64,000 nucleotides of DNA from assembly GCF_036669915.1 (NCBI RefSeq), contig NC_089319.1, positions 558,001 through 622,000 on the forward strand. Direction: 5' to 3'. Source of the DNA: Pocillopora verrucosa. Its lineage: Eukaryota; Cnidaria; Anthozoa; Scleractinia; Pocilloporidae. The translations under genes were made by a program, and so were the position numbers. The notes under the pieces were generated by a model. That model worked only from the letters and a program-made list of their open reading frames with translations, was not told the DNA's origin and searched no databases. This document shows, one piece after another, positions 4,227-63,398 of this stretch. The stretch's first letter is position 1, and every line of letters begins with the position of its first letter.

Positions 4227-4520
4227 TCACTGAAGAAATGTGATGATCACTTTATCATGTTCATCGCAATTAGAACAGCATTTGTTTAGTTGATTTGTCC
4301 CAAATGTCAAAAGACCCTCCCCCTCCCCCACAGGGAAAAGCTTTATTCCCACCTCCATTTCCTCCAGAGTAACCACCACCGCCCCAGCTCCGTTATCGCC
4401 TCGACGAAAACCAACGCCACCTCCGAATCCACCCAAATACTCTCCACCCTCTCCTCCCTGAAATTATCCTTATCTCCTCCTCCTTGTCCTCCACCACTAA
4501 CAGTCTTTCCATAACAGATG
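4227..4520 (-). pseudogene. G0: relic of a glycine-rich-domain terminal exon
   Basis: This is a copy of the last coding exon of the glycine-rich family (compare 14544-14860). It keeps the terminal stop (TGA, complement of 4227-4229) and the family ending VIITFLQ preceded by a two-cysteine CC motif. The first part of the exon, encoding the GGGGFF segment and the splice acceptor, is missing beyond about 4520, where similarity to G2 stops abruptly. Two small indels put the middle of the exon in another frame. No partner exon for the first half of the domain is seen upstream. It is a dead duplicate of the G2 3' exon, carried in duplication A1. Confidence 0.75.
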
Positions 4521-5873
4521 AGTTCTTCCTCGTCGTTGTTTATTAGGTGTATCCTGTCAAGGGAATATCACTGCGGTTTCCTCGCTTTTTGAGAATCCGA
4601 GATAATAAGAAACCTGAACAAGCCACGGACAGAGTTCATAGGTTAAAAACAATTTTTTTAAGGAGCGATGTTTACCATTTGGCACGAGAGTGGGTGAAAC
4701 ATAAATATACCCTCCGGCGAAGTTATAAACAATTCTGAGCCAGTTTAGGGTTTTCGGTGCGAAGCTCTACAAACTTACCTTCAATGAGCCTTTTAGTTCT
4801 TTGAATCAGTTTCTGAGTTCATATTTTGCAGGTTTCGTGTATGATTGTAAGTTCCGTTACTCGTCCCTAATCACAGAAAGTTGTTTCGGAATGCCTTTTG
4901 TTTCCCTTAAATCTAGGTTACGGAAATGTACAGAAGTCAAGAAATTGTAAAGAATAACGCAAATCCTCCACCAACTACGGACGCCTCCGATAACTTCTAT
5001 TGATGCAAGAAATAATTCCTTTCCGTATCCTGTGGAAAAAGAGGAGTTGGCGTCTCTTGAATGCCCAGGAAAGTGATTTACTTGCAATCGCCAAAGGCAT
5101 CGCATCTTAAGTTCAAAGTAAGCGTTTATTTGGACGCAATGGTAATAGGACGAGTTGAATTTTCAATCAAGATGTGTTATCAGCTACTGCTCTGACCTTT
5201 CACACCCTTTATCTCACGAGAGTGGTCAGATTTTAATTTCCTCTAACATTTATAAGACACTGTGTAGCATATAGGTAATGAAAATTAAGCCAAATCAAGC
5301 TGCTGCGCGCGGAGGGACTAAGCGGAACACCATACCTAGGTAAATATGATAACCATGCACGGTGGTCGGAAGGTGATAAAGCCGAACCGTCTCTCGTTTA
5401 CTAGGTTTAAATGAACGCCACAACCTGAAGGAAGTTCGGATAAAATGATGGGAAGTAAAAATGGACCAACTTGAGATCTGGGGCCTGCCTATCGTAATTA
5501 AATGTAGAACGCCTAACAACTGGGTATTACAAAATCTCACTTCCGTGTTAATGCAGTCCACATCTATATTTGACAATCCACTCGAATACAAATACAACTA
5601 GATGTAATAAGTGAGAGTTATATTAGGGGAACAATCCCAAGAATACACTGCCATAGAGAAGCTGAAATTTTGTGAAAGTTTCATTAAGCTGCACTTAGCA
5701 ATGGATAATTTTAGTGCTTTCTGCCGATCTGCAAGTAAATAGATTTCGTCTGAGAATTCCTCGTCTATACTAATATCACGATATAACAGAAGCCGTAATT
5801 TGTCATGATATTGAGAATTATAAGATTGTGTGAAATACCACAATTATGTTTTGTTTAAAAATTGTTGCATTGA
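4521..5873. other. Intergenic, nothing recognised
   Basis: The stretch lies between the G0 relic and the 3' end of G1. ORFs of up to 100 codons are present but none shows a domain, splice context or paralogue elsewhere in the window. It presumably includes the 3' UTR of G1. Confidence 0.5.
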
Positions 5874-8388
5874 TCACTCGATCAAGGTGATAGTCACTCT
5901 ACCATTTCCAGCCGTATTATGACAACATTCATTTTCCTGATTTGTTCCACTGTTAAAAGATCCTCCTCCTCCACCACAAGAGGGATCTTCATTAGTACCT
6001 CCAGCTCCCCCAGAGTAACCTCCACCGCCGCCAGCTCCCCCAGAGTAAGCTGGATTACTGCCGCCACCTCCGAACCCACCGTTATACGTTCCACCCTTTC
6101 CACCGTTCAGAAATCCCTTGCCACCTTTACCTCCTCCTCCCCCATTACCGTAAAAGCCGCCGCCGCCGCCACCTAAAGCGAAAAAGAAAATGTCCAGAGA
6201 TCTCTTTAATTGTACCGGAGTGCATCTATATAAAGGTCGGGAGAATACCTATTTTCTTCTATTAATAACTTAGTACTATGTTTTTCTATGCTCTGCCTTA
6301 AGGAATACGAAAGTCGAATCCTTGCTTAAAAAAAAAAAAGGTCTGTATGATTCCCGGAATGCTTTTGCTGTGTCACCCAATTAATCAACAACCTTGATAA
6401 CTGTACAAATGTCTACCTTGTTAACGCTTATGACCTAATGTGTATTCGTAGACTTGGTGGCTTGAAAGTAATGTAACACGGGCGCAAGTGAAGTTAGAAT
6501 TTAAGTGAACGAGCTACATTCAAGTGAACTAAGATTCTGCAAAGTTTTCGACTTTTTGAAGTGTGTGCTTCTGATGAATGAGCCCCAATGATTGCCATAA
6601 ATATGGGTTTTTTAACTCGTGTGAAATTTTTTCCTATCATCTCACAGTACCCCTGGTTTGAAAATGATTGGGTAAATTTCATTTTACTAACCTGGCCTAT
6701 TACCGGCGCTACCTCCTCCATTTCCGCCAGTTCCTCCTGAACCCAATGGCGAGGAGTACCCTGCATTCCCTGTGGTGCTTAGGGATGCATCACATCCTGA
6801 ATGTTGTTCTGACATGTTTTTAATTCCCCCACCACCTCCAGCTATGATTAAAGGCGTATTGGTTCCTCTCACCACAAATGTACCTCCCCCGCCTCCTGTA
6901 GTTGTTTTGGAGTTAGGCCCTCTTTTTCCTTTATGTCCAACAAGTATACGGATGATCTCATCTTTGGTCAAAATAAAGTTTCCGGTCAACTTGGCTCCTC
7001 TTCCTCCGTTCTGGACGACACTGTTCTTACCGTACCAACCTGCACCTCCTATTGCTTCTATTCTATATTCTCCAGTGTATGGCACAGTCCACAATTGAAT
7101 ACCGCTGGCCACGGTAGTTTGTCCGTCATGATCTTGCCCTGCATAGTGACTGCCAATTGAGCTTGGACCACCAGCTGCAGTCGAACCAAGGTTTGTAAAG
7201 ACAGCTTTAAACTCTGGTTCAGGGTGGATAGACAAAACATGAGTGAAGTGTTATTGTTGTAGGCCATGTAGCTGCCTAACTGATAGCAAACATACCTTTG
7301 GCGCACTCCGAAATTCATGGAAGTGTGTGGTAATCTTTTCGCGCCTTGTTTGAAAAAATAGTGGAAAGAGTTGTCACACAACTGCACCCTTACCTATGCA
7401 GCTGTTTCTTCCGTCCCCGGCAAATCCTACTTTGCAGAAGCAATTGTAGGAACCCTCAGTGTTGTTACACGTGGCGTCAGCATGGCATCCATGTAGACCT
7501 TTCTTGCATTCGTTGACATCTACGATAAGCATGATGATACTATCAGTTAGCCTCCGTTTTCATGATTGATAGCAAAAAATTGAGCCTTGAATTTACCTTG
7601 CTCACAGAAGTTTCCAGTCCACCCGGATGAGTTACAGGCACACGTGTAGTTCACGTGATGGTTTATGCACCTGGCATTGTTTTGGCACTGGTGTTGAATG
7701 CAGTAATCTGCGACTGGATGGGAAAAAATCTCTAAATGACACTTCCTCACGCATAATCAAAGTCATCATGAAATATTTGTCTTCCTAACCTTCTGTTTTC
7801 ATGTCACAGTGAGCTAGAATAGAGTTCCCGGACCTGGTGGAATCCAACCAGTATGTACCGCCGACTGATTGTCCTCCTTCACTCGCCTTAATCTCTCGGC
7901 ACGAATAGGCAGGCAGCTCAGGAATAGAGCCGAGAGGGACTGGAATTGAAGAAAGTATGAGAAACAATGATGAGTACCACTTTAGATCCTTGAACGAGGT
8001 ACTAATTTGAACTTTGAATAAAAATAAATTATTTCTAGTGTAAAGTTCTATTACTTCGTTTTGAGTTTCTCGACATGTAGTATCTGTCTTTGTCTTTGAC
8101 AAAGTCCTCAGGTCTGGCCTCTTTGGTCCGGTTGTTTAACTCGCACTTTGAATTCAGTATAACGATGTTATAGCTTTGACATCTGAAATCAGCGTGACAA
8201 GCTTCCCTGCATTCCAGCGCGACGGTGCCGGCTCGGCTCTCAATCGTCATATAGGTGTGGCCCCTGAGCATCTTTTGAAAAATGGAGTGAATGCCTGCTC
8301 CACACTGGTGGCTGGTAATGCTCTGGAACATTTGAGTCATGAAAAGCACGGTAAAGAGTGAAGGCTTTCCAGCGGCCTTTCGTAACAT
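5874..8388 (-). CDS. G1: secreted PAN, fibrinogen-like, EGF, EGF, ALK/LTK-type glycine-rich protein
   Basis: Six coding exons (transcribed right to left): 8055-8388, 7790-7939, 7597-7707, 7394-7519, 6692-7213 and 5874-6172. They total 1542 nt, or 513 codons plus stop, and every junction is phase 1 with GT-AG borders. The first exon gives a hydrophobic leader and a PAN/Apple domain (motifs [30 protein letters not shown]). Exon 2 is a 50-residue fibrinogen-like start ([20 protein letters not shown]). Exon 3 is a plain EGF, exon 4 a calcium-binding EGF ([15 protein letters not shown]). Exons 5-6 form the glycine-rich domain: [45 protein letters not shown], then a second glycine half ending NECC and a stop. 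The order resembles ALK/LTK extracellular glycine-rich domains, but there is no transmembrane or kinase part, so a secreted protein is inferred. It is the most divergent family member and has no visible lesion. A second in-frame ATG 16 codons downstream would still leave a leader. Confidence 0.88.
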
Positions 8389-11790: not shown

Positions 11791-11955
11791 CATAGAGGGC
11801 AAAATTACCGAATGCTGATTGGTCAATAAAGAGGGTATTTTGTTCTTAGTTTTGCTTGTGAAGAGGGCAAAATTACTCGCTCACGATCGGTCCTCAGGTT
11901 GCCTGGCAACAGCTTATGCTATCGAGTAGTTGTTGCCAAAAAATTCTTTGTAACA

Positions 11956-14543: not shown

Positions 14544-17500
14544 TCACTGAAGAAATGTGATGATCACTCTACCATGTTCATCGCTATTAAAACAACATTC
14601 GTTTAGCTGATTTGCCCCAATGTTAAAAGATCCCCCCCCTCCCCCGCAGGAAAAAGCTTTATTCCCACCTCCATTTCCCCCAGAGTAACCACCGCCACCA
14701 CCAGCTCCGTTGTCGGCTCCACGAAAACCACCGCCACCTCCGAATCCACCCCAATACGCTCCACCCTCTCCTCCCTGAATATATCCTTTACCTCCTTTTC
14801 CTCCTTTTCCCCCACCACTAACAGTCTTTCCATTACTGAAGAAGCCGCCACCTCCACCACCTAAAATAATGAAAAACTAATTAGTGATCTCTTATAAAAA
14901 GCACCTATCTAATTTATTCACTCTAAGCGATGTGCAAAATTGTTTTTGGGGACAAGTCAGCTCCACAATTTTTCGTTAAACTGTCTTTTTATTGCACCTT
15001 TTTAATTCAAATCTGCAATTAGCCAATAGAACCCCTTGTCAACTGTGTATAGATGTGAAGGATATCTAAAAAGTGGACGAGTGAAACTCAGTTGAGTGTC
15101 AGATGTTGTAGGAGGCGTCTTCATAAGTTTTATTGAGGAGAAAAGAAAAACTGTAAAATTAAGATTGATAATTTTAATAATTGAGATCCTTCTGTAATCT
15201 TATTGTCCTAATGAATTGAACATACTGATAGATTTTTCTCCTTTCTTCGCTTACCTGGAGATTGACCACTTGTTTTTCCTCCATTTCCGTTGCTTCCTCC
15301 GGACCCTAAAGGCGAGTTGTTCCCTGCATTCCCTGTTGCGCTTATGGACGCATCACATCCTGGATTTTGTCCTGACATTTTTTTAACTCCCCCTCCACCT
15401 CCAGCTATAATCAAAGGCGTATTGCTTCCTCTTACTACAAATGTACCTCCACCACCTCCGGCATTTGAGTTGCTGGACGACTTCGCTTGACTCCCCTTTT
15501 GACCAACAAGTATACGAATGTTCTCTTTTTGGTCAAATTAAAGTTTCCAATCATTCTCGCTCCTCTTCCTCCATTTTTAATAACGCTGTTTTTACCGTAC
15601 CCCCCTGGGGCTCCTATTGCTTCTATTCTGTATTCACCAGTGTGTGGCACAGTCCACTGCTGAATACCACTAAATAGTGTAACTTGTCCGTCATGATCCT
15701 GACCTGTGTAGTGGCTCCCAATTGAGACTGGACCCTTACCACCTTCACTCGCATTGAGGGTTGTAAAAACAGCTGTAAATCCTGTATTAAACACGGAATA
15801 ATATGTAAGAAGTTTTCAAATTTTTTTTAGTATTGACCTTACTGTCAACTTCAATGCTTGAAAATGATATCCCTGCAAATTAAGCGAAATTGGAAAAAGG
15901 CGAAAAAGCTCCCGAAGAGTCTACCAACAGAGTCAAAACGCGTTCAAAAGACTTCGTGGACTTCTAGTGACCTGCGAGAAAAAGACAGTTTTCCACACTG
16001 TGTTTGCTCCCTTGTATGGCTGAAAGCCATTTTTTATACTGATATTTATCTAACAAATTGATTCGATTATGCCCTGCGTCTGTACAATAGAAAGATCGCC
16101 GGTATCTAGAATAAGAAAAGAAATATTTGAGATAAGAAAGATGAGAGACGGAGTATGAATATGTTAAATCTAGTCACCTCTGCAGTTGGTTCCATTTCCA
16201 TGAAATCCATCTTTACACGCGCACTTGTAAGATCCCAGGGTATTGTTGCACTCGGCATTCACATCACAATCGTGTATTCCATCGAAACACTCATCTGTGT
16301 CTAGAGTAAGAAAAAGAAGACCATCTGAATAAGTCCTATTATTTCTGCTTTTGATAAAAGGCACCTCAGAAAATGTGAAAACAAGTTACCCGAGCAGTTA
16401 GTTCCATTTCCATGATATCCATCTTTACACGAGCACTCGTAAGATCCCAGGGTATTGTTGCAATCGGCATTCATATCACAGTCGTGTGTTTTATCAGCAC
16501 ATTCATCCATATCTAGAACTCGAAAAGGATTATCATGTAAATAAGACTTTTTTTAAGCCCCCTTACACAATGATGATGAAAGACGGTGTTTGAAATGTTT
16601 CAGCAAGTTACCTGTGCAGTTAGTTCCATTTCCATGAAATCCATCTTTACACGAGCATTTGTAAGATCCCAGGGTATTGTTACACTCAGCGTTCACATCA
16701 CAGTTGTGTATTCCGTCAATACATTCGTCGATATCTAAATCAACAAAGAATATTTTATTATTTTATTGTAACTAAGCTTTTTGTTATATGACAGAGTATT
16801 ATCATCAAAAGAGACAACATGATGTACTATAACAAGTCACCTGTGCAGTTCGTTTCATTTCTATGAAATCCGTCTTCACACGTGCACTTATAAGATCCCA
16901 GGATATTGTTACACTCAGCATTCATATCACAGTCGTGTATTCTGTCAGCACATTCATCTATATCTAAAACACGAAAAGTGTTATCATGTAAATGAGACTT
17001 TTTTTGAAGCCCCCTTATACAATGACGGTGTTTGAAATGTTTTAACTAGTTACCCGTGCAGTTAGTTCCATTTCCATGAAATCCGTCTTTACACGAGCAC
17101 TTGTAAGATCCCAGGGTATTGTTGCAATCGGCATTCACATTACAGTTGTGTATTCTGTCAGCACATTCATCTACATCTAGAACACGAAAAGGATTATCAT
17201 GTAAATGAGACTTTTTTTTAAAAGCCCCCTTATACAATGCCGGTGAAAGACGGTGTTTGAAATGTTTCAGCAAGTTACCTGTGCAGTTGGTTCCATTTCT
17301 ATGAAATCCATCTTTACACGAGCATTTGTAAGATCCCAGGGTATTGTTACACTCAGCGTTCACATCACAGTTGTGTATTCCGTCAGTACATTCGTCAATA
17401 TCTAAATCAACAAAAAATATTTTATTATTGTATAGTAACTAACCTTTTTGTTTTATGACAGGGTATTATTATCTAAAGAGGCAACTTGATATGTTATAAC

Positions 17501-18626
17501 AAGTTACCGGTGCAGTTAGTTCCATTTCCATGAAATCCGTCTTCACACATGCACTTATAAGATCCCAAGATATTGTTACACACAGCGTTCACATCACAAT
17601 CGGGTGTGCTGTCAGCGCATTCGTTTATATCTATAACACAGAGAAGAACATCATATAGATGAAATCCTTTTTTAAAGCCCTCTCGGACAATAAAGGTGGA
17701 ATACAGAGTCTGACTATGTTGGACACTGTGACCCACCCCCTCCCCAGTGAGAAAATTAATATTAGTTTGATTGGTCGTTTGACTATTCTATCGATAGACC
17801 AAAAGTGTAAGTGATTAGGATATTCATCTAAACTAATCGCGATGTACTTGAACACGAGCGTCCATTGCCAGTGTATCCCCCCTTGCAGGTACAGTAATAG
17901 GAACCCGCAGTGTTGGTGCAGTATGCATTGACGTCACAGGCATTTTTTCCACTAAGGCATTCATCATGATCTAGTTGGGGAATGGAGAAGGAAGAGAGTC
18001 AAAATTTCGCCAACATTTATTTTACCAGAGAGATAGTCTTACCCTGTGCTAAATTGACACTTACAGCCACATAACACAACAAGAATTGTGTTCCAACGAG
18101 TTAGACCATGGTTAATGGCAACTTTGAGGCAAGAATGTTGTTCAAAGTTTTATTAAATTGCAATTAAATGTAAAATGTCCATTTGGAATATTTTTTTCCA
18201 TTTTTGGATTTTTTATACAAATATGTAGACAAAAGTAGAAACTGCGCAGCACATTGTTTCAGGACTAGAGCGATTTCCAAATCGACAATTTGAACAAAAA
18301 ATTAAACCAACATTGCCTTCAACATTGATTTACCTTCTAAATACATATCACAGTAAACCAAAACTGCCTTCCCAGTGCCAGATGGATCCAGCCAGTATTT
18401 GTTGCTTACAGTGTCTTTCCCTTCGCTTGCTTTTATCTCGTGGCATGAACGTGCTGGTAACTCCGGAATCGAACCCAAGGGAGCTGGTATGAGTAAAAAT
18501 GTTGAAACTTAACACTCAACACAACTCCTCTTTTCGCCAAAAAATGATAATTGACATTGATAATTGTAGATCTTGTCGTTCGTTCGATTAAAAGGTTACA
18601 GTCACTTTGATTAACTTTTCTTTTAT

Positions 18627-18657
<31 letters not shown>

Positions 18658-19430
18658 TTTAAACCGGCCAAGCATTTAGAGGCGCACAGATCGAAAAGGG
18701 AGAATAAAAGGCGCTTGAGAATATCAACGGGATCTGAATTCCATTTACTTAGGTTCCCTTTTGACTTGTGAATATTTAAGGAGGATTTTATTCTGAGGAG
18801 ACAAGACCCTTCTCTCGTAAGCCCTCCATTTAGAGCTTTCATTTTTTTTACAGTCATCCCTGACCGTAAGCTTGTTGCAGCACTTTAAAAAGTAAATAAA
18901 TCAATAACTTCTTGTAAACATTTTACACATGCATCAAAGTTATTTTTTGCATGTTAACTATAGGTTAAACTTCAAAGAAAGTAGGTGGAAATGATATATT
19001 TCATTTTTACGGTCAGGAGGTAATAGAAAAATCAATTCCGGGAAATCGGAAAAGGCAGGCTGTGAACAGACTGTAAGACAGAAATATTTAGAATTATTAT
19101 AAATTGCTTGGTCGAGTATTTACCTCTTCCGTTCAAACGGCGAATATAAAACCACGCTGGGTCTGAGCGAAAATTCTCGGGTCTCGCGTCCTTTGTGCGA
19201 TGGTTTAATTCACAGATCTGTTCTTTTCTGTTGAAATTATAGCTCTGACAGATAGTTTCCCTTTCACATAAGATATCACAGATATGAGGAGCTGCTACTG
19301 TCATCCTCTTTAGAACGAAACCTTTGAGAGCCATGCCACGAATATCAACTTCTGACCTGCATTGATCCTCAGCAGTTTCAAGGTTGGTGAACGAAACACA
19401 GACAAGGAAATAACAAAATATCCACAGCAT
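14544..19430 (-). CDS. G2: secreted PAN, fibrinogen-like, eight EGF, glycine-rich protein with a 1-nt frameshift
   Basis: Twelve coding exons: 19124-19430 (leader [11 protein letters not shown] and PAN), 18334-18483 (fibrinogen-like piece), EGF exons 17848-17970, 17508-17630, 17279-17401, 17054-17176, 16841-16963, 16612-16734, 16390-16512 and 16178-16300 (each 123 nt), then 15255-15781 and 14544-14860 (glycine-rich halves). All borders are GT-AG and all phases 1-1. The EGFs are of the calcium-binding type ([25 protein letters not shown]). Exon 15255-15781 is 527 nt, one short of a multiple of three; compared with paralogues one base is missing at about 15520, just after NLTK. Without that loss the protein would be 761 aa. 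As read, translation leaves frame and loses the GGGGG core. Either a recent null allele or a sequencing error; the remaining exons look maintained. The start is chosen because it is conserved with G4 and G6. Confidence 0.8.
16178..17630 (-). repeat. Seven-exon EGF tandem array within G2
   Basis: Seven EGF exons of 123 nt alternate with introns of about 77-106 bp. Exons and introns repeat with a period of 664-667 bp: 16390, 16612 and 16841 pair with 17054, 17279 and 17508, and the introns between them are nearly alike (tcatgtaaatgagac, aatattttattatt). So a three-exon unit was duplicated. The eighth EGF exon (17848-17970) is more different and matches the single EGF of G6 instead. Confidence 0.85.
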
Positions 19431-22527: not shown

Positions 22528-25007
22528 TTAACGAAGAAATGCGATGATCACTTTACCATGTTCATCGCTATTACAGCAATATTCATTTTCCTGATTTGTT
22601 CCATTGTTAAAAAATCTACCCCCTCCCCCACAGGAATTATCTTTATTGGCACTCCCACTCCCCCCAGAGTAACCTCCACCGCCCCCAGGTCCCTTAACGC
22701 CCCACGAAAACCACCTCCACCTCCAAACCCACCTCCATACCCCCACCCACTCCTCCCTCAACATATCCTCTACTTCCTTCCCCCCCTCCCTGATCAGAGG
22801 ACGTTTTTCCATTACTGAAGAGGCCGCCGCCACCACCACCTACATAAATAAAGAAAAAAGTTAAAAGTGATCTCTCACAAATAGCACCTATTTGATTATT
22901 TACTGTTAGGTGATCAAACAAACTTTAAGATTCGCATTTTTGGGCATATAAGTTTATTTCGTAAGTTTTGGATGTTTATCTGAACAAATTGTTGGATACC
23001 GATAGTAAAGATTAAAGATTAAAATGAATTAATCCTAATTAGGGTTTTGGCTAATCCTGCAATATCTAACTTTCAGCGCCATACTGTCCTACTGGGTTGA
23101 AGATATTAATGAACGGCTGAAAAATGAAATAGAAAATCATAGCATTTATAAAAAGGAAATTATTCGCTAACCTGAATATTGACCATAGACATTTCCTCCA
23201 TGTCCGTTTTCTCCTCCCAATGGCGAGTTTTTTCCTTCATTTCCTGTTGTGTTTATGTTTATGTTTTTGTTCTGACATTTTTTTAACTCCCCCTCCACCT
23301 CCAGCTATGATCAAAGGCTTGTTGTTTTCCCTCACTACAAATGTACCTCCTCCACCTCCGGCTGTTTTTGGTTTGGTTGCCCCTTTTTGACCAACAAGTA
23401 TACAAATTATCTCATTTTTGGTCAGAGTTAAGTTTCCAATCATCCATGCCCCGCTTCCTCCTTTTTTGGTGACACTGTCCTCACTGCACCTCTGGGGCTC
23501 CTATTGCCTCTATTCTATATTCACTGGTGTGTGGCACAGTCCACAGCTGAATACCGCTGGATAATGTAACTTGTCCGTCATGATCCTGACCTTTGTAGTG
23601 ACTGCCAATTGATTCTGGACCCTCCCTTCCAGTCTTGTCAAGATTTGCGGACACAGCTGTAAATCCTGTGTAATAAATACGCAATACGCCAGATAAGTAT
23701 CCTGTGTCTTTGCTGTCATTTTTACGGTTAGCAGGATAACGAGTGTAATTGAAAAAAGGTTCATTTTATATCGCTCTGTTTTAACACTGGGTTGTTGGTT
23801 GGGCCTCTCCTTACTGCCGTTGTTGTTGCCGTTGTGAACAAGAGGCCTTCATAAAGAGGATGTATTTACCTGTGCAGTGTGTTCCATTTCCATAAAAGCC
23901 CGCGCTCGTACACGTGCACTTGTACGATCCCAAGGTATTGTTACACTCAGCATGAACATCACAGCTGTGTGTTTCGTTAGTATATTCATCTATGTCTAGA
24001 ATAAGAAAAAGAAGACCATTTAAGTCAGTGCTGTTATTCTTTACTGCACCTCCGTGAATGAAGATTAGACAGTTGCAGCATGTCTCATAAGAATCTCTGC
24101 AGCATCTCTCATAAGTAACGCCTTGAAGGTAAAGAACGGAGAATGAATATGTCAGAACTAGTTACCTATGCATGTATTTAACAGGTTAGAGAGGCTGAGG
24201 TATCCCCTGGTCCGGTATCAAAGCTTTCTCGGACAAGGAATATTACTTTTAGCCCATAGAATTCAGCCTCACCTCCGCTCCGCGGTAAATACAACTTTTG
24301 TATTCCACCAGGCCTTCATCGTGTTCAATAGTCGCGTTAATTCACATTACACTTATGTTTTCCAGACGACTGTTTTATCTCAAAGAAGTTATAACTGACG
24401 CAGTTAGGTTCCAAGTAGCAATGAAACATGCAGAGATCCTCGTTGACAGCGTCAATAGTTCGAACCGTGTGATTCTCCAACCGGAAGCCAAGTTTAGGAA
24501 AACTGGTAAACTTTAAATTGCGGCAATTACCTGGGGAAAAAATCTATTAAGTTAGAAAGTTGCTTTGTGGTACTAGGAACTTTTACTTAAACAGGAACTT
24601 TTACTTAAACTGGAACTTTAGAGCAGTGTTACTCCTGAATCCTTGCTTTAATTTGGATTTTGGTTTTTTTCCTTGCCTAGAACACCAGTCGAGTGATTTT
24701 AAATATTATTCCGAATGATCACGGCAATTTTTAACTTCTTGGTGCGATCTATTATGATCAATCGATCAATCGACGCCGAAGTCTACAATCAAGTCTACAA
24801 TATATAGTGTAATTCGTGTTTATCACGTAATAATGGCAATCTCGTCTGAAGATGTTTAGCTCGTTACTATCAGAACGTTTTCGGGGAGCTTTTGTTTGCT
24901 CTCGGCTAAAAACTCAATTCATGAAAAGTGTAAGTGTGTTGTTGTGTAGCGTGACTTCAGATTTCGACCATACTGAGTGTTATCAGCAAGAGATAATTAA
25001 ACTCGCT

Positions 25008-33372: not shown

Positions 33373-36213
33373 TCACTGAAGAAACGTGATGATCACTCCA
33401 CCATGTTCATCGCTATTGAAACAACATTCATTCTGCTGATTTGTCCCATTGTTAAAAGATCCTCCCCCTCCCCCACAGGAAAACTGTTCATAAGCTCCAC
33501 CATTTCCTCCAGAGTAACCTCCACCTCCTCCAGCTCCACCGTTGCCTGTACGTAACCCACCGCCACCTCCGAACCCACCCCTACCATATCCACCATTTCC
33601 TCCTTGAAGATATCCTTGACCTCCATTTTTACGGGACTGTGTATCTTGCCCATTACTGTAGAAGCCGCCGCCGCCGCCGCCACCGCCACCATCTACAATA
33701 AACGAAAAGTGAGAAGCAGTTATCTCATAAACGGCTCCTAATTGACTACTTGTTTAAGAGCGTTTAAACGACGATTCGTAATATTATCAATTAAGTGCAC
33801 TTCTCAATTTTTGGAAGTTTATTTAAGAGTATTATTAGGTAGTCAATTGCTAGAAATTGAAAAGCTTATTTGGACGAGAGAAATGTAAATGAAGTGATGC
33901 CTATGTATATTGACGGATCGATGGTGAGCAGTAAATAAATGTGTACGATTTCTAAAAACTGAACTGGAAACCCAGTTGAACTTTAGATATTCTAAGAGGT
34001 GCCTCCGAGAAAAGAAAACCTTCAAAGCTAGAATTAATAATTTTTATAATTCAGTTCCGATAAATCTTATTGTCGTCTTCCTATCCTGGTTAACTGAAAA
34101 AACTGATTGGTTTTTTTTTCTTCCTTCTCCGCTTACCTGCAAATTGACCACTCGTTTTTCCTCCGTGTCCGTTGCTTCCTCCTGACCCCAAAGGCGAATT
34201 GTTCCCTGCATTTCCTGTTGTGTTTATGGACGCATCACATCCTGGATGTTGTTCTGACATATTTTTAATCCCCCCTCCACCTCCAGCTACGATCAAAGAC
34301 TTGTTTTCTCTCACCACGAATGTACCTCCACCACCTCCGGCATTTTTTGGGTTTGAATTCCCTTTTCCCCCTTTTTGACCAACGAGTACATGAATGATCT
34401 CATCTTTGGTCAAAATAAAGTTTCCAATCATCCTTGCCCCTCTTCCTCCGGTTTTGATGGTACTGTCCTCACCGTAGCCCCCTGGGGCTCCTATTGCTTC
34501 TATTCTGTATTCACCAGTGCGTGGCACAGTCCACAGTTGAATGCCGCTGGATAATGTTACTTGTCCGTCATGATCTTGATCTTTGTAATGACTACCAATC
34601 GAGTTTGGTCCCTTCCTTCCAATCATACCAAGATTTGTAAAAACAGCAGTAAATCCTGCGTAAAAACATACAATAAAAGTGAAAGTTATGATACTAATAA
34701 GAAATTTGTCCACATTTTCTTGCCAGTATTACCAACTACCGCTTGAAAAATATTCCTGCAGGTTGAGCAGAATAAGATAAAGGAGAAAAAGCTCCTAAAA
34801 TCCCTTTAGCAAAATCAAAGCAGGTTCATAGAAGGTTTCCATTCTCTTCCCGCTCTGTTAATGATTACGTCACGTACGAAACAATCCTCTACCCATCTGT
34901 AGATACGGAAACTGTGACCCCTCAGCCCTGAATCAAACATTAAGGTCACAAGAATAAAGGAAATGATCACCAACTAAAGAAACTCTTGATTGTCAAACAA
35001 ATTCTCCAGAGAACAGTATGGAGAACATGAATACTGATGTTAGGGTGTAAAGGGTTAAAGCAAGAATGTTTTTGAAAACTTTATAAAAGTGTAGTATGGT
35101 TAAACCCTGTCTATTTGCTTGTATTTTTTCCCTCTTGGGTATTTTTTTTTCTTTTTAATATACAGCTGAAACTGCGCAATGCATTGTTTTCAGGACTGGT
35201 GTGATTTTTTTACATCTTAAAGCAACCAAGGTTGCTACAAAAAAACGACAACTCAAACGCAAAATGAAAGCTACAATGGGTTAAATGTAATTTACCTTCC
35301 AAATTCATATCACAGTAAACCAACACTGCCTTCCCAGTGCCAGATGGATCCAGCCAGTATTTGTTGCTTGCGGTGTCTTTCCCTTCGCTTGCTGTTATTT
35401 CACGGCATGAACGTGCTGGTAACTCCCGTATCGAACCCAAGGGAGCTGGTACGGGTAAAAATGTTGAAAATAAAGTATTCGTAAGCACAGATGGAAAGGA
35501 AAAAGTGAAAAGCACGAGAGAATAAAAATGAGACTCGAATTCCATTCACTTGAATGTCCTTCTTTGGTTGTGAAATATTTCAACGTTCTGTCAAGCACAA
35601 CCCTCTAGGAAGACAGGACCCCCTCTCGCATAAACCCTTCGTTTGAGCTTCCAATTCTTCAAAATTCTTTACTGACCTTAAGCTTCTTGTAGAAATGACG
35701 CAATCATTTTTTGTCAATGTTTATACATGTATCACAGCTGCTTTTTTTTTAAACGGAAGTTAACAAATATTTAAACTTGAAAGAAAAAAGAAAAGGATGA
35801 AATTTTCTATTTTGATAGAGAAATTGATACCAAAGGGCACAGGAGATTGGAAAACACGGACTGTATGCAGCATGGTTTTTATTCAAAGCGCTTGTTAAGT
35901 TCTTACCTCTTCCGTTTAAACGGCGAATATAAAAGCACGCTGGGTCTGAGCGGAAATTCTCGGGTCTTGCATCCTTTGTGCGGTTGTTTAATTCACAGAT
36001 CTGTTCTTTTCTGTTGAAATTATAGCTCTGGCAGATAATTTCCCTTTCACATAAGATATTACAAATGTGAGGAGCCGCCACCGCCATTCTCTTAAAAGCG
36101 AAACCTTTGAGAGCCATGCCACGAATGTTAATTTCTACCCTGCATTGATCCTCAGCGATTACAGGGTTGGTGACCGAAACACAGACAAGAAAATAACGAA
36201 ATATCCACAGCAT
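33373..36213 (-). CDS. G4: secreted PAN, fibrinogen-like, glycine-rich protein without EGF
   Basis: Four coding exons: 35907-36213, 35296-35445, 34137-34655 and 33373-33692, total 1296 nt, 431 aa plus stop, all phase 1 with GT-AG borders. The leader MLWIFRYFLVCVSVTNPVIA precedes a PAN domain ([35 protein letters not shown]). The fibrinogen-like piece has [19 protein letters not shown] and YCDM. The glycine-rich part shows [37 protein letters not shown] and a second half with NECC and VIITFLQ. Compared with its duplicate G6, a segment of about 445 bp containing the EGF exon is deleted at about 34916; as all phases are 1, the frame survives. The PAN ends DPACFYI where G2 and G6 have DPAWFYI, adding an odd cysteine. 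No lesion is seen. Secretion is inferred; function unknown. Confidence 0.87.
34656..35295. other. G4 intron with the deletion scar of the EGF exon
   Basis: Colinear with 61367-61632 and then with 62077-62480 of G6; the EGF exon and surrounding 0.44 kb are missing at about 34916-34922. A second small deletion of about 30 bp lies near 35008. The rest is ordinary intron. Confidence 0.8.
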
Positions 36214-40843: not shown

Positions 40844-40847
40844 TTAA

Positions 40848-41860: not shown

Positions 41861-41995
41861 TTCTCGGATTTCTCGCTGAAAGGGAAAAAATAATATTTGG
41901 TCGTCACATCTGTCTGCATAACGGTCTCTGTTCCAAAGTTTGAAGAGTTCTTGTAAAAAAAGATATCGCATTCGCATAACGGGTGGACGTCATAA

Positions 41996-44447: not shown

Positions 44448-45456
44448 ATCGCTGCTTTATTAAGAAGGGAGAAGCAAATGAGGATAATTACACATGTACA
44501 ATTGAATTATGTGACAGTGGTCACGGTGTATTTCAGTATGTGCTGTTATCGCCGGTTACACTAAATAGAATCCTGTAGTTTGGTTTTGAAATGTTCATAC
44601 AGGTTTGAATAGCGTAAGCCATCAGAACTCAAATATGAAATAACAGAAGCCAAATTTTTAAAAAGGGGTTTGCGAGCGCTAATCAAATTGATATTCGATA
44701 CGTTGTTGTTGACGTCTTTCGTCACGAGATAATAAAATTTGTCAAATTTTGGCCTTTTAAAATGTTTAAGGTATTAATCGGTGTGGTCTTAAAGCTCTGT
44801 CTACTATATTTTCTATTATATTTTCTACTTCTAAGATTTATTGAGCTACTCACATAAAACGGTCGGAGTTTGCTCAATGAACTAATTTGCATAATCGGCT
44901 GTCACGCTTGCAATATCGCTAAAAGTTCGAAGTCACCTCGGCGAAGAAAATCAATAAGTGCAAGATGTTTTTATATTTTTCTGCAGCCAAACATCTTATT
45001 AGCAGAAATCAAGCGGAGTTTTTAATGGTCTGGTCTGGACTTGAGCAATATCAATCGAGAAAGAAAGAGTACTTTAAATTAATTTCAGAAAGCTGTCCAA
45101 CGAGTGTTTTTAAATAAATTATGACGAGCCTCTGAATAAACGAATATCAAAATTGAAATGCATTTTATACACCTTATATATCACACACTTTAAGAATACA
45201 AAATATTTTTGTTGCATGCGGTGTGATACGAGGACCGGGCTATTCAACATTTGAAATTTTCGATGTCGCAAGAGGTCAAAAAAGGGCCTTTTGCAGCTTT
45301 GACTTTTGAGAGCTCTAAAAATTTTATTTTGAGGTATTTCCAAAAACTAATGTGGTTTTATTTACTTGTTACCAAAGATAGTTTATTGGGTAAAGTTTGA
45401 GGGAAAACTTTTTTCCGATGCGAAATGCCATGGACCGCTCTTACAGAGATCGCCTC
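44448..45456. repeat. Right terminal inverted repeat of the TTAA element
   Basis: Inverse copy of 40848-41860; starts with ATCGCTGCTTTAT (complement of the left inner limit) and ends CAGAGATCGCCTC followed by TTAA. Confidence 0.87.
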
Positions 45457-45460
45457 TTAA

Positions 45461-47251: not shown

Positions 47252-48302
47252 TCACTGAAGAAAGGTGATGATCACTCTACCATGTCCATACCTATTAAAA
47301 CAACATTCATTTTGCTGATTTGTCCCATTGTTAAGAGATCCTCCCCCTCCCCCACAGGAAAACTCTTCATTAGCTCCACCGTCTCCTCCAGAGTAACCTC
47401 CACCTCCTCCAGCTCCACGGTTCCAACGTAAACTACCGCCACCTCCAAACCCACCCTTACCATCTCCACCCTCTCCTCCTTGAAGATATCCTTTACCTTC
47501 TCGGCCAGAACCGCTCGAAGCACTTTGTCCATTACTGTAGAAACCGCCGCCGCCACTACCTACAATAAACGAAAACTGAGAAGCAGTTGTCTAATAAATG
47601 GCTTCTATTTGATTACTTACTTAAGAGCGTTTAAACGGCGATTCACAATATTATCAACTTAGTGCACTTCTCAATTTTTAGAAATTTATTCAAAAATATT
47701 ATTGGGTAGTCGATTGCTAGAAATAGAACAGCTTATTAGGACAAAATAAATGTACATAAGGTGATACGTAGGATTTTTTAAAAAACTGATATTCTAAGAG
47801 GTGCCTCCGAGAAAAGAAAAACTTCAAAGTTAGAATTAGTAATTTCAACAATTAAGTTCTGACAAATCTTACTGTCGTCCTCTTGTCCTGATGGATTGAA
47901 CCTACTGATTGTTTTGTTTTTTTCTTCTTTCTCCGCGTACCTGAATATTTTGTACTGGCCTTTTCTCCATTTCCGTTGCTGCCTCCTTAACCCAATGGCA
48001 AGTTATACCCTCCATTCCCTGTTGTGTTTATGGACGCATCACATCCAGGATGTTGTTCCAATACATTTTTAATTCCTCCTCCACCTCCAGCTATAATCAA
48101 AGACTTGTTGTTTCCTTTCACTACAAATGTACCTCCTCCACCTCCGGCTGTTTTTGAGTTAAAACTCTCCTTTTCCCCTTTTTGACCAACAAGTACATGA
48201 ATGATCTCATCTTTGGTCAAATTAAAGTTTCCAATCATTCGTGCCCCTCTTCCTCCGGTTTTTATAAAACTGTCCTCACTGTACCCCCCTGAGGCTCCTA
48301 TT

Positions 48303-48333
48303 GCTTCTATTCTGTATTCAACAGAATAGAAGC
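48303..48333. repeat. Perfect 13-bp hairpin created inside the G5 glycine-rich exon
   Basis: GCTTCTATTCTGT (48303-48315), loop ATTCA, then ACAGAATAGAAGC (48321-48333). All paralogues lack the right arm and read caccagtgcgtgg-like sequence there. The change adds 6 nt and leaves the frame open ([17 protein letters not shown]). Confidence 0.9.
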
Positions 48334-49651
48334 GTGGCACAGTCCACAGTTGAATACCGCTGAGCAATTTTACTTCTCCGTCATGATCTTGATCTTTGTA
48401 ATGACTACCAATCGCGTCTGGACCCTTTGGTCCAATCTTACCAAGATTTGTAAACACAGCTGTAAATCCTGCGTAAAACCATAGAATAAAAGTAATGTTT
48501 TTGGTAAGAAATTGTCAAAAGTTTCTTTGCCATTTCTAAGGAAATGTTCTTACATTTACGTAAATTATTAAATCACCGAAAAAATGGCATTGAAACGTCA
48601 GTCACTTGGAGCGTTCGATCAAGTCGTGCTATGCATTTTCCGACGCTTGCTCACGTTTGTATTTTTAGAAAATAGAAATCCTCGATAGTCGGGCATTGAC
48701 TTACTTCATTACATCGAAAGATTACATTCGACAATAACATATTGATTGCCGACCTGAATCAAAATGGTGATGTTAAAACAGTTCCACAACTCATTCATAC
48801 AACATTCCTATAATCGTGCCTCTCGGGGGGCTCAATATCATGCAATTATTACTAGCGGTTCGTTTGCAAAATCCCTGCAAATGATGATCCAAAAATACTT
48901 CTTTTCTTGTTCAAACGAGAATCAATACACAAGAAATCAATTTTACCTTCGTTGTGTTTTGTCCTGGGGCTGTATAATTGTGAAACCTTTCAGTATCGTT
49001 GCCGTACTGCAGATTGTACTTTGTAACCCACTCTCCCTGGTGTCTATTACTTCCTTGTGTTGCCATACGTGTCACTCGAGTGTTCAGAATAACCAGATCA
49101 ACTTGGAGCCATTGATACGTACCATTACTTTCAGCCGCCCAAGATCCCGCTCCGTCAGGATTTACAAAATGAAGTCTGCTCTGAGTGGCGGAGTGTTTAG
49201 AATCTCTCTCTGAAGAGGCGCTTAACTGTCCATCAGAGATGTCACCGCTTTGCATGCCGAGAAATCTTCCACATTCTGTTTACGAAAGGTTAGCGGGCGT
49301 TTTACAAATATAACTTATCTACGGCAGCGAAATAAAAGTAGCTATAAGATCATGAAGCAATTAATCAAGCGTAGTTTACACTCAGCTAAAAAAAATTTCG
49401 TTAACATAATCACAGAAACTTCCAACGAAATGAAGAACCTTAAAGAGCTCCTATAATTAGATCAACTGTGATGCAAACTATCAGCTTTAGAGGAAAGTTA
49501 TTTTCTTACCTTTCACGCATCCATACAGTTTCACTCTCATTGATATCTCACCTTCCCACTCCACTGGTAGAAATCGTATGTACCTTGCTGTGATTGGTGC
49601 ATTCAGGTCATGATAAACAACACTGTTCTCGTCTGTGTTTCCGTCAAATTC

Positions 49652-51411
49652 CTGCATTATAAAAGATTTGAAATAAATGTTACGTGTTTTCATATAAATT
49701 GCTTGGTACGTGCCCGCATAAGAACATAAGAATTTTTTAAAATAAAATCTATATCATTATATTATGCAATGTTTTGCGTTAGGTAAACCGTGAAATATCT
49801 CACGAGCGATTTCATTCATTAAATTCATCCCGTTCCACCTTACGGTAAAATTTAGACGAACTTTATCTACAAATATCTATCTGAGGTTGATCAAAAACTG
49901 GATCAGGATGAAATTTGTACCCGTGCAAAGAAAATGGTAAATGTAAGAAATTCCATACATCGTAACAATCTTCTTTAACAACTGTCGACTCGTGCATCGT
50001 AACAAATCGAGAAACGAATCCCTGATTGCAAAGAAGACTGTTTGTCCTCACAAACTACTCAAAGAACACTTCGGGGAAGTTTGAGTAAAGGAATGAACTT
50101 GGCTTTGTGTACAATGAGCAGCTCATGTTTTAGAACCCTTCCAGGCCTCTGATCAGTTTTACCTTTGATATGGTTTTTCCTTGTTCCTTGTAGTTTTGAA
50201 ATCTCACTCCATAGTTGCTGTATTGTAGCTTGTACCTCGTCACCCATTTGTTATGTTGACGTGATCCCTGTGTTGCTACTCGAGTTACTTCAGTGTTTTG
50301 AGCTCTGAGATCGAGCTGAAGCCACGGATTAGAATCCTTATTATCTGGTATCCAAGTCTTCCTTGTGTGATGTAATCTTACAATTTTCGCGTTATCCTTG
50401 TGTTTTTGGGACGAGAAAGTTATCTGCTCATCGGTGATTGCACCACTTTCCATACCAAGCGTTCCTTGAGAACGTAAATCTATTTTAATGCAAAAGGAAA
50501 TCTAAAATTACCAAATAAAAAAAGAGTGTCGCAACACCCTAATATACCTGAAATTGCTCACACGCCATTGGGTGATATTTTCCATTTTACATAATCTGAG
50601 TACATTTTGGCTTCTGCCCACATCAGGTGTATTTTTTTAATGAGAAAATATCTCCTTAATGCTGTTTACATGTTTGTGACTGAACGTTGTTGCGAGGAGC
50701 TTGGTGTATAATCTTCCATTTTAACAGATTAAGAACATCAGATCTCTTCATTGATGTTGTCAAGCATTTTCTCACATAAAACTTGAAAGCCCGCAATATA
50801 CAGAAACCTCGTTTTAATCATTTTTTCAACCAGTTATTGGATTAAGTGACGAAATTCATCCTTGAATTGAGTTGATATGAACCCAAAAGGGACGACGTTT
50901 TTAAAGCGGTGTGATAATATCGTTCATTCGTGATAAACAATTAGATATTGGTTTAAATGTGGTACGAAAACGTGTCTGCTGGCTCATTCAACGAACGTGG
51001 CTAGAACAATTTTTAATCAACCTTAATCTTTCATTGTTTTATGTTTTTATGTAGATATGGGATCACGTCTGATCTTTGCGTAAACTTTGTGCTTAGTTCT
51101 GTTGACATTCGCTTCGTAAGAAAGGAAACTGAGAAATTACAGTTTGTTCGTGTAGATGGTGGGTAAGAAACCGCGTTGAAGAAAATTGAGACTGAATGAG
51201 GTAAAAAACAAAAATGAGTGAAAAATCCCGTTCCAAGATGAACCATAAGAAGCAACATAGTTGTTCACATGTAAGTCCCTTTTGTATTTTGAATAACTTG
51301 TGCCATTCTAGGCTTTCACCTGCGATGTTCTGTGACTATCACCAATCACTTGCGGAGCTTATCACTTATACATCTTGTTTCTGCCTTAATGAAAAATATA
51401 AGACTCCTTAC
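49652..51411. other. G5 introns between discoidin and EGF exons
   Basis: Apart from the exon at 50163-50464, the introns 49652-50162 and 50465-51411 show no repeat shared with other paralogues and no recognisable coding segment. Confidence 0.5.
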
Positions 51412-51977
51412 CCTCATCACAATCGTGGCCTTTAGATCCAGATCCATCAACACACAAACACTGATAGTCTTTGTCTGTAAACCCAGCTTGGCATGTTGCG
51501 TTATTCTTGCAAGGATTTTGCTTACAAGCATTCTTGGGAAGGAAGGGATAAACTTAAAATGATATTTTTGCACGCATGATAGGTTCCTCGCATGTATTCA
51601 TTTATTCCCCTTGCAAGCGGGTAAAATTAACGGGTTAGAGAGGCTAGGTATCCCTTGGTCCGGTATTAAAGCTTTCTCGGACAATGAATATTACTTTTGG
51701 CCCATAGAGTTTATCCTCACCTCTGCTCCGCGGTAAATACAAATTTTGTTTTTCACCAGGTCTTCATCGTGTTCAATAGTCGCGTTATTTAGGTCACACT
51801 CATGTTTTCCAGACGACTGTTTTATCTCACAGAAGTTATAACTGACGCAGTTGGGTTCCAGGTAGCATTGAAACATGCAGAGATCCTCGTTGACGACGTC
51901 AATGGTTCGAACCGTGTGATTCTCCAACCGGAAGCCAAATTTAGGAAAACTGGTGAACTTTAAATTGCGGCAATTAC

Positions 51978-54477: not shown

Positions 54478-54541
54478 CTTGTACTTCTGGTATTAGAGAA
54501 GCCAAAACGGTGAGAACAAAGCAGTAGAAAACAAACAGCAT

Positions 54542-60089: not shown

Positions 60090-63000
60090 TCACTGAAGAA
60101 ACGTGATGATCACTCCACCATGTTCATCGGTATTGAGACAACATTCATTGTGCTGATTTGTCCCACTGTTAAAAGATCCTCCCCCTCCCCCACAGGAAAA
60201 CTGTTCATAAGCTCCACCATTTCCTCCAGAGTAACCTCCACCTCCTCCAGCTCCACCGTTGCCTGTACGTAACCCACCGCCACCTCCGAACCCACCCCTG
60301 CCATATCCACCATTTCCTCCTTGAAGATATCCTTGACCTCCATTTTTACGGGACTGTGTATCTTGCCCATTACTGTAGAAGCCGCCGCCGCCGCCACCAT
60401 CTACAATAAACGAAAAGTGAGAAGCAGTTATCTCATAAACGGCTCCAAATTGTTTACTTGTTTAAGAGCGTTTAAACGACGATTCGTAATATTATCAATT
60501 AAGTGCACTTCTCAATTTTTGGAAGTTTATTTAATAGTATTATTAGGTAGTCAATTGCTAGAAATAGAAAAGCTTATTTGGACAAGAGAAATGTAATGAA
60601 GTGATGCCCATGTATATTGACGGATCAATGGTGAGCAGTAAATAAATGTGTACGATTTCTAAAAACTGAACTGGAAACCCAGTTGAACTTTAGATATTCT
60701 GAGAGGTGCCTCCGAGAAAAGAAAACCTTCAAAGTTAGAATTAATAATTTTAATAATTAAGTTCCGATAAATCTTATTGTCGTCTTCCTATCCTGGTGAA
60801 CTGAAAAAACTGATTGGTTTTTTTTTCCTTCCTTCTCCGCTTACCTGCAAATTGACCACTCGTTTTTCCTCCGTGTCCGTTGCTTCCTCCTGACCCCAAA
60901 GGCGAATTGTTCCCTGCATTTCCTGTTGTGTTTATGGACGCATCACATCCTGGATGTTGTTCTGACATATTTTTAATTCCCCCTCCACCTCCAGCTACGA
61001 TCAAAGACTTGTTGTTTTCTCTCACCACGAATGTACCTCCACCACCTCCGGCATTTTTTTGGTTTGAATTCCCTTTTCTCCCTTTTTGACCAACAAGTAC
61101 ATGAATGATCTCATCTTTGGTCAAAATGAAGTTTCCAATCATCCTTGCCCCTCTTCCTCCGGTTTTGATGATACTGTCCTCACCATAGCCCCCTGGGGCT
61201 CCTATTGCTTCTATTCTGTATTCACCAGTGCGTGGCACAGTCCACAGTTGAATGCCGCTGGATAATGTTACTTGTCCGTCATGGTCTTGATCTTTGTAAT
61301 GACTACCAATCGAGTCTGGTCCCTTCCTTCCAATCATACCAAGATTTGTAAACACAGCAGTAAATCCTGCGAAAAAACATACAATAAAAGTGAAAGTTTT
61401 GATACTAATAAGAAATTTGTCCAAATTTTCTTGCCAGTATTACCAACTACCGCTTGAAAAAATATTCCTGCAGGTTGAGCAGAATAAGATAAAGGAGAAA
61501 AAGCTCCTAAAATCCCTTTAGCAAAATCAAAGCGGGTTCATAAAAGGTTTCCATTCTCTTCCCGCTCTGTTAATGATTACGTCACGTACGAAACAATCCT
61601 CTACCCATCTGTAGATACGGAAACTGTCACCCCTCCCCCTCCTCCCCTCCGCTCCTCTCCCCTCTCAGCAAATAAATGTATATCATCTTGATTAGCCATT
61701 TGACTGGTGGTTTTTTTGTTTATGGTGTCCACATAAACATCATCTAAATTTTAAATTTAATCACAGATTTTACTGATTAAAATAATAATGTACCTGAACA
61801 CGAGCGTCCATCGCCAGTGTATCCTTCCTTGCATGTACAGTAATAGGAACCCACAGTGTTGGTACAGTATGCATTGACGTCACAGGCAATGTTTCCACTG
61901 ATGCATTCATCGTGATCTTGTTGTTAATTTAGCAGGGAAACAGTAAATTGTACTAAGTTGACAATCATGGCCACATAACACAAAAAGAATGTTTACATTT
62001 CTTCCAACAAAATGGACAATGCCTGCAATATTAACCCTTTAAGCTCTAAGAGTGACTGGCATCTAATTTCTCCATACCATATCAGCCCTGAATCAAACAT
62101 TAAGGTCACAAGAATAAAGGAAATGATCACCAACTAAAGAAACTCTTGATTGTCAAACAAATTCTCCTTGTCAGCACCTTAGTAAATGTACAGAGAACAG
62201 TATGGAGAACATGAATACTGATGTTAGGGTGTAAAGGGTTAAAGCAAGAATGTTTTTCAAAACTTTATTAAAATGTAATGTGGTTGAACCCTGTCTATTT
62301 GCTTATCTTCTTTTTCCCTTTGGGGTATTTTTTTTCTTTTTATTCTACAGCTGAAACTGCGCAATGCATTGTTTTCAGGACGGGTGCGATTTTTTTACAT
62401 CTTAAAGCAACCAAGGTCGCTACAAAAAAACGACAACTCAAACACAAAATGAAAGCTACAATGGGTTAAATGTGATTTACCTTCCAAATTCATAACACAG
62501 TAAACCAACACTGCCTTCCCAGTGCCAGATGGATCCAGCCAGTATTTGTTGCTTGCGGTGTCTTTCCCTTCGCTTGCTGTTATTTCACGGCATGAACGTG
62601 CTGGTAACTCCTGTATCGAACCCAAGGGAGCTGGTACGGGTAAAAATGTTGAAAATAAAGTATTCGTAAGCGCAGATGGAAAGGAAAAAGTGAAAAGCAC
62701 GAGAGAATAAAAATGAGGCTCGAATTCCATTCACTTGAATGTCCTTCTTTGGTTGTGAAATATTTCAACGTTCTGTCAAGCACAACCCTCTAGGGAGACA
62801 GGACCCCCTCTCGCATAAACCCTTCGTTTGAGCTTCCAATTCTTCAAAGTTCTTTACTGACCTTAAGCTTCTTGTAGAAATGACGCAATCATTTTTTGTC
62901 AATGTTTATACATGTATCACAGTTGCTTTTTTTGTAAACGGAAGTTAACAAATATTTAAACTTAAAAGAAAAAAGAAAAGGATGAAATTTTCTATTTTGA

Positions 63001-63398
63001 TAGAGAAATTGATACCAAAGGGCACAGGAGATTGGAAAACACGGACTGTATGCAGCATGGTTTTTATTCAAAGCGCTTGTTAAGTTCTTACCTCTTCCGT
63101 TTAAACGGCGAATATAAAACCACGCTGGGTCTGAGCGGAAATTCTTGGGTCTTGCATCCTTTGTGCGGTTGTTTAATTCACAGATTTGTTCTTTTCTGTT
63201 GAAATTATAGCTCTGGCAGATAATTTCCCTTTCACATAAGATATCACAAATGTGAGGAGCCGCCACCGCCATTCTCTTAAAAGCGAAACCTTTGAGAGCC
63301 ATGCCACGAATGTTAATTTCTACCCTGCATTGATCCTCAGCGATTACAGGGTTGGTGATCGAAACACAGACAAGAAAATAATGAAATATCCACAGCAT
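60090..63398 (-). CDS. G6: secreted PAN, fibrinogen-like, EGF, glycine-rich protein
   Basis: Five coding exons: 63092-63398, 62481-62630, 61794-61916, 60845-61366 and 60090-60400; total 1413 nt, 470 aa plus stop, all phase 1 with GT-AG borders. The leader MLWIFHYFLVCVSITNPVIA is followed by PAN ([20 protein letters not shown]), a fibrinogen-like piece ([13 protein letters not shown] where others have YCDM), one calcium-binding EGF (DHDECISG, CTNTVGSYYC) and the ALK/LTK-type glycine-rich domain ([37 protein letters not shown]; last exon with NECC and VIITFLQ). G6 is the closest relative of G4 and keeps the EGF exon that G4 has lost. No lesion is visible. There is no transmembrane segment or kinase, so a secreted product is inferred; its partner is unknown. 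Confidence 0.88.

Follow-up and report, generated by a model that had tools for sequence, protein, structure and literature searches.

A tandemly expanded family of predicted secreted PAN proteins with a terminal ALK/LTK-type glycine-rich domain in the coral Pocillopora verrucosa

The glycine-rich domain (GRD) is known from the receptors ALK and LTK, where it captures ligand. Does this module also occur in proteins that are not receptors? The question is raised by a stretch of 64,000 nucleotides of the coral Pocillopora verrucosa, here called the window (positions 558001-622000 of contig NC_089319.1, hereafter C8), which carries a series of genes ending in such a domain. The ALK ligand-binding module seems indeed to have a life apart from receptors, and the genes rather probably represent a tandemly expanded animal family of secreted multi-domain proteins with a proposed role in extracellular recognition or adhesion.

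Reading of all frames of the minus strand revealed six GRD gene units, named A to F, and one relic. The domain is distributed over two exons, a first half (GRD1) and a second half (GRD2), and the latter ends in a stop codon. A first-pass annotation of the window had described six genes and a relic on one strand with such a two-exon glycine-rich end, and the reading frames confirm this description. Open frames and consistent splice sites are found only in A, C and F, which are regarded as intact, and all 11 of their modelled introns are in phase 1. Ten open reading frames (ORFs) of the window were scanned against Pfam (cut-offs 21.4 bits for PAN_1, 26.2 bits for COLFI, PF01410, and 24.5 bits for ALK_LTK_GRD, PF12810). 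The units and their exons, in window coordinates, are:

63398-60090, minus strand: gene A, intact unit of PAN, COLFI stub, EGF, GRD1 and GRD2
63092..63398, minus strand: gene A exon 1, start codon, putative signal peptide and PAN (PAN_1 34.2 bits, E 2.3e-8; donor site read)
62481..62630, minus strand: gene A exon 2, COLFI/fibrinogen-like stub of 50 amino acids (COLFI 26.6 bits; phase-1 splice sites)
61794..61916, minus strand: gene A exon 3, EGF module without counterpart in C (acceptor site looks weak)
60845..61366, minus strand: gene A exon 4, GRD1 (ALK_LTK_GRD 41 bits; splice sites)
60090..60400, minus strand: gene A exon 5, GRD2 and stop (from sequence reading)
about 47252..51977, minus strand: gene B, PAN, two F5/8-type C (discoidin) domains, GRD1 and GRD2; first exon not located
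36213-33373, minus strand: gene C, intact unit of PAN, COLFI stub, GRD1 and GRD2, without EGF exon
35907..36213, minus strand: gene C exon 1, start codon, putative signal peptide and PAN
35296..35445, minus strand: gene C exon 2, COLFI stub
34137..34655, minus strand: gene C exon 3, GRD1
33373..33692, minus strand: gene C exon 4, GRD2 and stop
about 22528..24530, minus strand: gene D, relic with a PAN containing stops, one EGF, GRD1 in three pieces and a damaged GRD2
14544..19430, minus strand: gene E, PAN, COLFI stub, eight EGF, GRD1 and GRD2 with stop; frameshift near 15540 in GRD1
8388-5874, minus strand: gene F, intact unit of PAN, COLFI stub, EGF, GRD1 and GRD2
8055..8388, minus strand: gene F exon 1, start codon, putative signal peptide and PAN (PAN_1 19.8 bits, under the cut-off)
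7790..7939, minus strand: gene F exon 2, COLFI stub
7394..7519, minus strand: gene F exon 3, EGF module
6692..7213, minus strand: gene F exon 4, GRD1 (donor site picked by likeness to other copies)
5874..6172, minus strand: gene F exon 5, GRD2 and stop
4227..4463, minus strand: GRD2-only relic ending in VIITFLQ and a stop; two similar relics lie outside the window

Gene B reached 21.4 bits for PAN_1, 52 bits twice for F5_F8_type_C and 42.8 bits for ALK_LTK_GRD; an in-frame TAA lies near the end of its GRD1 exon (47987-47989), and with the first exon its signal peptide was not located either. Gene D is frameshifted and broken at several places, and in gene E one ORF carrying two of the EGFs scored 82 bits for EGF_CA. 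The breaks in B, D and E could be real damage or assembly errors. Between COLFI stub and GRD, genes A and F possess an EGF exon that C lacks, so that closely related copies differ by a whole module, even if the acceptor site in A looks weak. As to the parts proposed in the first-pass annotation, PAN, EGF and discoidin were recovered, but the supposed fibrinogen-like part is a 50-residue stub assigned to COLFI. The intact genes would accordingly encode a putative signal peptide and a PAN domain first, then variable exon modules, and finally the GRD followed by the stop; this structural reading of the family is close to certain.

How firmly can the terminal domain be tied to ALK and LTK? The first GRD exons of A and B match PF12810 with 41 and 42.8 bits, respectively, and the same scan places PAN_1 in both genes (in B at the cut-off); the second GRD exon of A alone is without any Pfam family match. 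The spliced GRD of A scores 32.5 bits over residues 47-264, above the cut-off. Furthermore, a profile of seven spliced GRDs, drawn from 14 intact ones, was searched against all PDB sequences, and at E<=1 nine of nine distinct matching sequences were ALK, LTK or the nematode ALK homologue scd-2 (best E 3.9e-12). The score of the ALK match sits in profile positions 5-104 and not in polyglycine (46 bits, with 2.4 bits bias). Two paralogues on contig C2, described below, reach 27.1 and 33.2 bits against PF12810, and a single-sequence search with one of them matched ALK at 1.6e-16 with 0.1 bits bias in the first stretch. Since the profile matches nothing but the ALK family at low bias, and since the C2 paralogue also matches ALK, the first half of the GRD is, judged by its sequence, a homologue of the ALK/LTK glycine-rich domain. 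The ALK/LTK assignment of the first-pass annotation is therefore borne out for this half. Compared with the receptor domain (PF12810; PDB 7nwz, 7n00, 7lrz, 7nx0, 7lir), the likeness consists of a homologous first half of about 100 residues at low bias, while the alignment of the glycine-rich second half to the family is mostly due to composition.

This compositional second half, together with a match of Gly_rich_2 (PF21722) to the spliced GRD of A (28.1 bits, cut-off 24.3; weaker than PF12810), could be taken to mean that the domain is glycine-rich low complexity merely resembling ALK. Such a reading is hardly credible, given PDB matches solely to the ALK family with so little bias in the scoring half and the single-sequence match of the C2 paralogue, which rule out an artefact of composition for the first half. 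For a C2 paralogue Gly_rich_2 reaches 19.8 bits, under its cut-off, and for gene F nothing was reported at E<=0.1.

In ALK and LTK receptors the GRD is followed by a transmembrane part and a kinase. Here, in contrast, it forms the C-terminus of the protein, and no EGF, transmembrane or kinase part comes after it. In the larger array to which the window belongs, all 20 GRD2 places terminate with a stop codon at the equivalent position. The same terminal stop was found in 16 further genes, namely in all eight examined on contig C4, in four of four of a second C8 array, in one each on C12 and C3 and in two on C2, so that all readable 3′ ends, spread over five contigs, stop alike. Among 22 loci examined for GRD2, 19 gave a match, every one with the stop (six repeat array genes and 13 are new); no match was obtained at L004, L007 (second exon beyond the examined flank) and L044. 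A motif scan of the 264 kb array detected no chained kinase motifs, the one isolated DFG-like match lying on the other strand, and in the same scan of 21 search loci and of the C2, C3 and C12 loci none was found near a GRD. A genome search with PF07714 yielded 151 matches from 136 of 2019 candidates scored; none of the matches listed lies near a GRD, the nearest pair, on C5, being separated by about 370 kb. A true ALK gene may exist elsewhere in the genome. The N-terminal parts differ as well: ALK carries MAM and LDLa before the GRD, neither of which was found at E<=1 among the ten window ORFs, the modules there being PAN, the COLFI stub, EGF and F5/8. A continuation into transmembrane and kinase exons, which had been named beforehand as the outcome that would speak against the proposal, is thus absent from the DNA read, and the description of a domain without kinase stands.

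Is the window an isolated case? From the window plus 200 kb of neighbouring DNA, an array at 538-802 kb of C8 was read which comprises 17 gene units and three GRD2-only relics, and 145 of 145 module matches in it are on the minus strand. Its architectures are:

PAN-COLFI-(EGFn)-GRD: genes A, C, E, F and others
PAN-COLFI-EGFn-F5/8-F5/8-GRD
PAN-(EGFn)-F5/8-GRD, with one or two F5/8: gene B and others
PAN-EGF-GRD: broken gene D

In the whole genome (353 Mb), PF12810 gave 94 matches at E<=0.001, 94 of 94 over the cut-off; these are exon-level matches and not gene counts. They are distributed over C5 (40), C8 (31), C4 (9), C2 (6), C10 (4), C11 (2), C3 (1) and C12 (1). At least 32 of the 94 have a PAN of the same strand no more than 17 kb upstream (C8 26/31, C4 4/9, C5 1/40, C2 1/6), a lower bound because only 44 PAN places entered the comparison. 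The PAN exon family itself has at least 150 matches (150 of 679 candidates scored), and the 20 best, with at least 84 % identity, are all inside the C8 arrays. The C2 locus contains two PAN-GRD genes, at 12026113-12027330 and 12018307-12019509 (L043 and L042), with PAN and GRD in one frame; their PAN_1 scores are 33.0 and 19.5 bits, the latter under the cut-off. The first lacks introns and contains its own start codon. In the second the frame does not open with an ATG, and a first exon may lie upstream. These one-frame genes differ from the many-exon genes of C8 and may be the ancestral form or else retrocopies. On C3 there is a PAN-EGF-GRD gene, its PAN and EGF recognised by eye, whose GRD occupies a single exon and finishes in a stop codon; a second C3 copy has the same kind of tail. 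PAN exon arrays also occur at C5:15.0-16.1 Mb and C9:0.96-1.08 Mb, where most rows are about 59-67 % identical to the PAN of gene A. No listed GRD lies within these two arrays, so that the PAN start may be a common chassis shared by several gene families.

Whether the copies are maintained can be judged from the ratio of nonsynonymous to synonymous substitution rates (dN/dS), from which, as from the tree, the broken units were excluded. Among the 14 intact GRDs the median is 0.45 (89 of 91 pairs), and 88 of the 89 pairs used stay below 1. When the domain is divided into blocks of 40 codons, the ratios of means are 0.30, 0.36, 0.62, 0.26, 0.78, 0.58 and 0.39. The intact copies are mainly under purifying selection, with looser stretches. 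Positive selection is not claimed, a single pair of the 89 exceeding 1, at 1.06. In a tree of 30 first GRD halves, the eight C4 copies form one clade (100/99), the C12 copy, on a long branch, groups with the F-type copies (support 89/75), and the copies of C2 and C3 stand apart on long branches. The 14 C8-I copies fall into two groups, and the tree does not show the window array as one clade; the C8-I copies may nevertheless have one origin.

These data bear on the possibility that the genes are debris of duplicated ALK receptor genes which have lost the kinase part and are functionless. In favour of such an origin are the breaks in three of the six window units and the three GRD2-only relics of the array. 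However, the 14 intact GRDs keep their splice sites and 3′ ends under the constraint just described, kinase-free PAN-GRD genes exist on other contigs too, and the N-terminal modules found are unlike those of ALK; the debris explanation is very unlikely.

A structural role is a more serious alternative. The high glycine content and the many copies would suit proteins of mucus, skeletal matrix or glue in which the GRD is a stiff material and the other modules are cross-linkers, and EGF and F5/8 modules are common in matrix proteins. It is nevertheless doubtful, since the ALK match sits in the non-repetitive first half, and since the low dN/dS of the first 80 codons (the blocks at 0.30 and 0.36, ahead of 0.62 for codons 81-120) points to a folded domain. 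In addition, the main text of a coral skeletal proteome contains no mention of ALK, glycine-rich, PAN or discoidin (PMC4890752).

What, then, might the proteins do? The N-termini of A, C and F are hydrophobic and were read as putative signal peptides, and no transmembrane-like stretch was seen in the mature proteins of A and C (highest mean hydropathy over 19 residues 1.39 and 1.11, respectively, in models built without the EGF exon of A). On these two grounds the predicted family proteins are most likely secreted. The first-pass annotation had proposed a stand-alone secreted GRD attached to PAN, fibrinogen-like, EGF or discoidin parts; its stand-alone nature, its position on exchangeable modules and the lack of a kinase are borne out, and secretion is apparent only. 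The functions suggested there, as soluble ligand, decoy, matrix or recognition protein, received no support from the sequence. The proteins would work outside the cell, in mucus, in the mesoglea or at the surface of the epithelium. PAN and F5/8 would attach to glycans or to ligands on surfaces, the EGF repeats would set the reach, and the GRD at the free C-terminus would be a module for protein-protein contact. The proposed role in recognition or adhesion is drawn by analogy from the usual roles of PAN, EGF and F5/8 domains and is advanced with reserve, as a suggestion somewhat short of probable.

An alternative function is suggested by the homology to the GRD with which ALK binds its ligand. 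Decoys are commonly built as soluble fragments of receptors, and the secreted GRDs could, as decoys or co-factors, take up an ALKAL-like ligand and thereby tune a true ALK receptor. One position of the GRD was aligned with what we take to be an acidic ligand-contact residue of human ALK, and all 14 intact copies have R, K or G there. A six-frame exon search of the genome for ALKAL (PF15129) gave no match over the cut-off, the single match with E 5.4 being taken as chance, although small ligands may be missed by such a search. This result and the missing kinase near any GRD among the PF07714 matches listed weigh mildly against a role as ALK ligand or decoy, and the decoy explanation appears improbable. 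For ALK of Drosophila and nematodes, PMC8584162 names other ligands, Jeb and HEN-1.

Several observations weigh against the reading as a functional secreted recognition family with an ALK-type domain. Signal peptides were judged by eye, in just the three genes A, C and F. The second half of the GRD matches ALK with 4.0 bits against 43.7 bits bias, which reflects mainly glycine content; it is therefore alone no evidence of homology and, taken by itself, may be an artefact of composition. The spliced GRD of F stays under the PF12810 cut-off with 22.2 bits, although in the genome search its first exon by itself exceeds that value with 27.3 bits, and AlphaFold on the first GRD exon alone, a half domain modelled with four window sequences, reached a predicted local distance difference test score (pLDDT) of only 31.6. 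For these three reasons an ALK-like fold rests on the first half. The block with the highest dN/dS, 0.78, lies around the exon junction and fits relaxed constraint as well as recognition. With half of the window units broken, part of the array is either decaying or mis-assembled. Finally, neither the skeletal proteome cited above nor the matrisome of Nematostella (PMC12549020) mentions ALK or a glycine-rich domain in its main text.

Has such a family been described before? In the open-licence literature searched, no description of an animal PAN-GRD family was found, and within this scope the term undescribed used in the first-pass annotation is upheld. The stand-alone domain as such is not new, as PF12810 is reported, in the text available, from three predicted proteins of the fungus Drechmeria coniospora with no function known (PMC4859500). 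These resemble the coral family in the stand-alone domain, but they are fungal, and no PAN, other modules or array are mentioned with them in that text (PMC4859500). Nematostella Polydom is extracellular and combines PAN/Apple and F5/8 (FA58C) with other modules (PMC12549020). Polydom-type proteins are thus similar to the family here in their extracellular PAN/Apple and F5/8 combinations, but the same source mentions no glycine-rich domain in them and few paralogues, in contrast to the large arrays of Pocillopora. Two papers on coral gene duplication contain in their main texts no mention of ALK or glycine (PMC10236652) and of glycine or tyrosine kinase (PMC12314368), respectively. As the literature covered was open-licence, without supplements or Pfam architecture pages, domain databases may well list proteins with PAN and PF12810 already.

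Some features of the window concern the growth of the array and its other elements. The segment 24178-36816, with the PAN exon of D and all of C, matches the segment 51627-64000, with the PAN exon of B and all of A, in pieces of 82-96 % identity. Part of the array has therefore probably grown by copying of multi-gene blocks that include parts of two genes. A stretch at 25011-26296 is present in one block copy and absent at 52447-52450 of the other; with an RVT_1 reverse transcriptase match (E 5e-10) within 25000-25413, it looks like an inserted piece of a retroelement. On the plus strand, 11833-13026 is an open frame of 397 amino acids with a match to DUF3504 (E 4.9e-25) and weak matches to phage integrase and QRICH1, presumably a Crypton/ZMYM-type recombinase-derived gene or element. 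An inverted repeat of about 1 kb and 94 % identity (40844-41860 and 44448-45460) encloses 2.6 kb. Three ORFs inside it have no Pfam match at E<=0.01, and it is possibly a fold-back element or a DNA transposon.

A family of kinase-free GRD proteins bears on the question of where the ligand-binding module of ALK came from. The GRD might be an old secreted module linked to PAN and diversified in animals into an extracellular recognition repertoire, with dozens of genes in this genome, and with ALK as a branch which gained a kinase later or separately; this is a speculative scenario and on balance an unlikely one. For annotation, GRD matches in such genomes should not be named ALK/LTK receptors where kinase exons are missing. 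With several architectures and several sites in one genome, the family offers natural variants for asking what a GRD binds outside a receptor.

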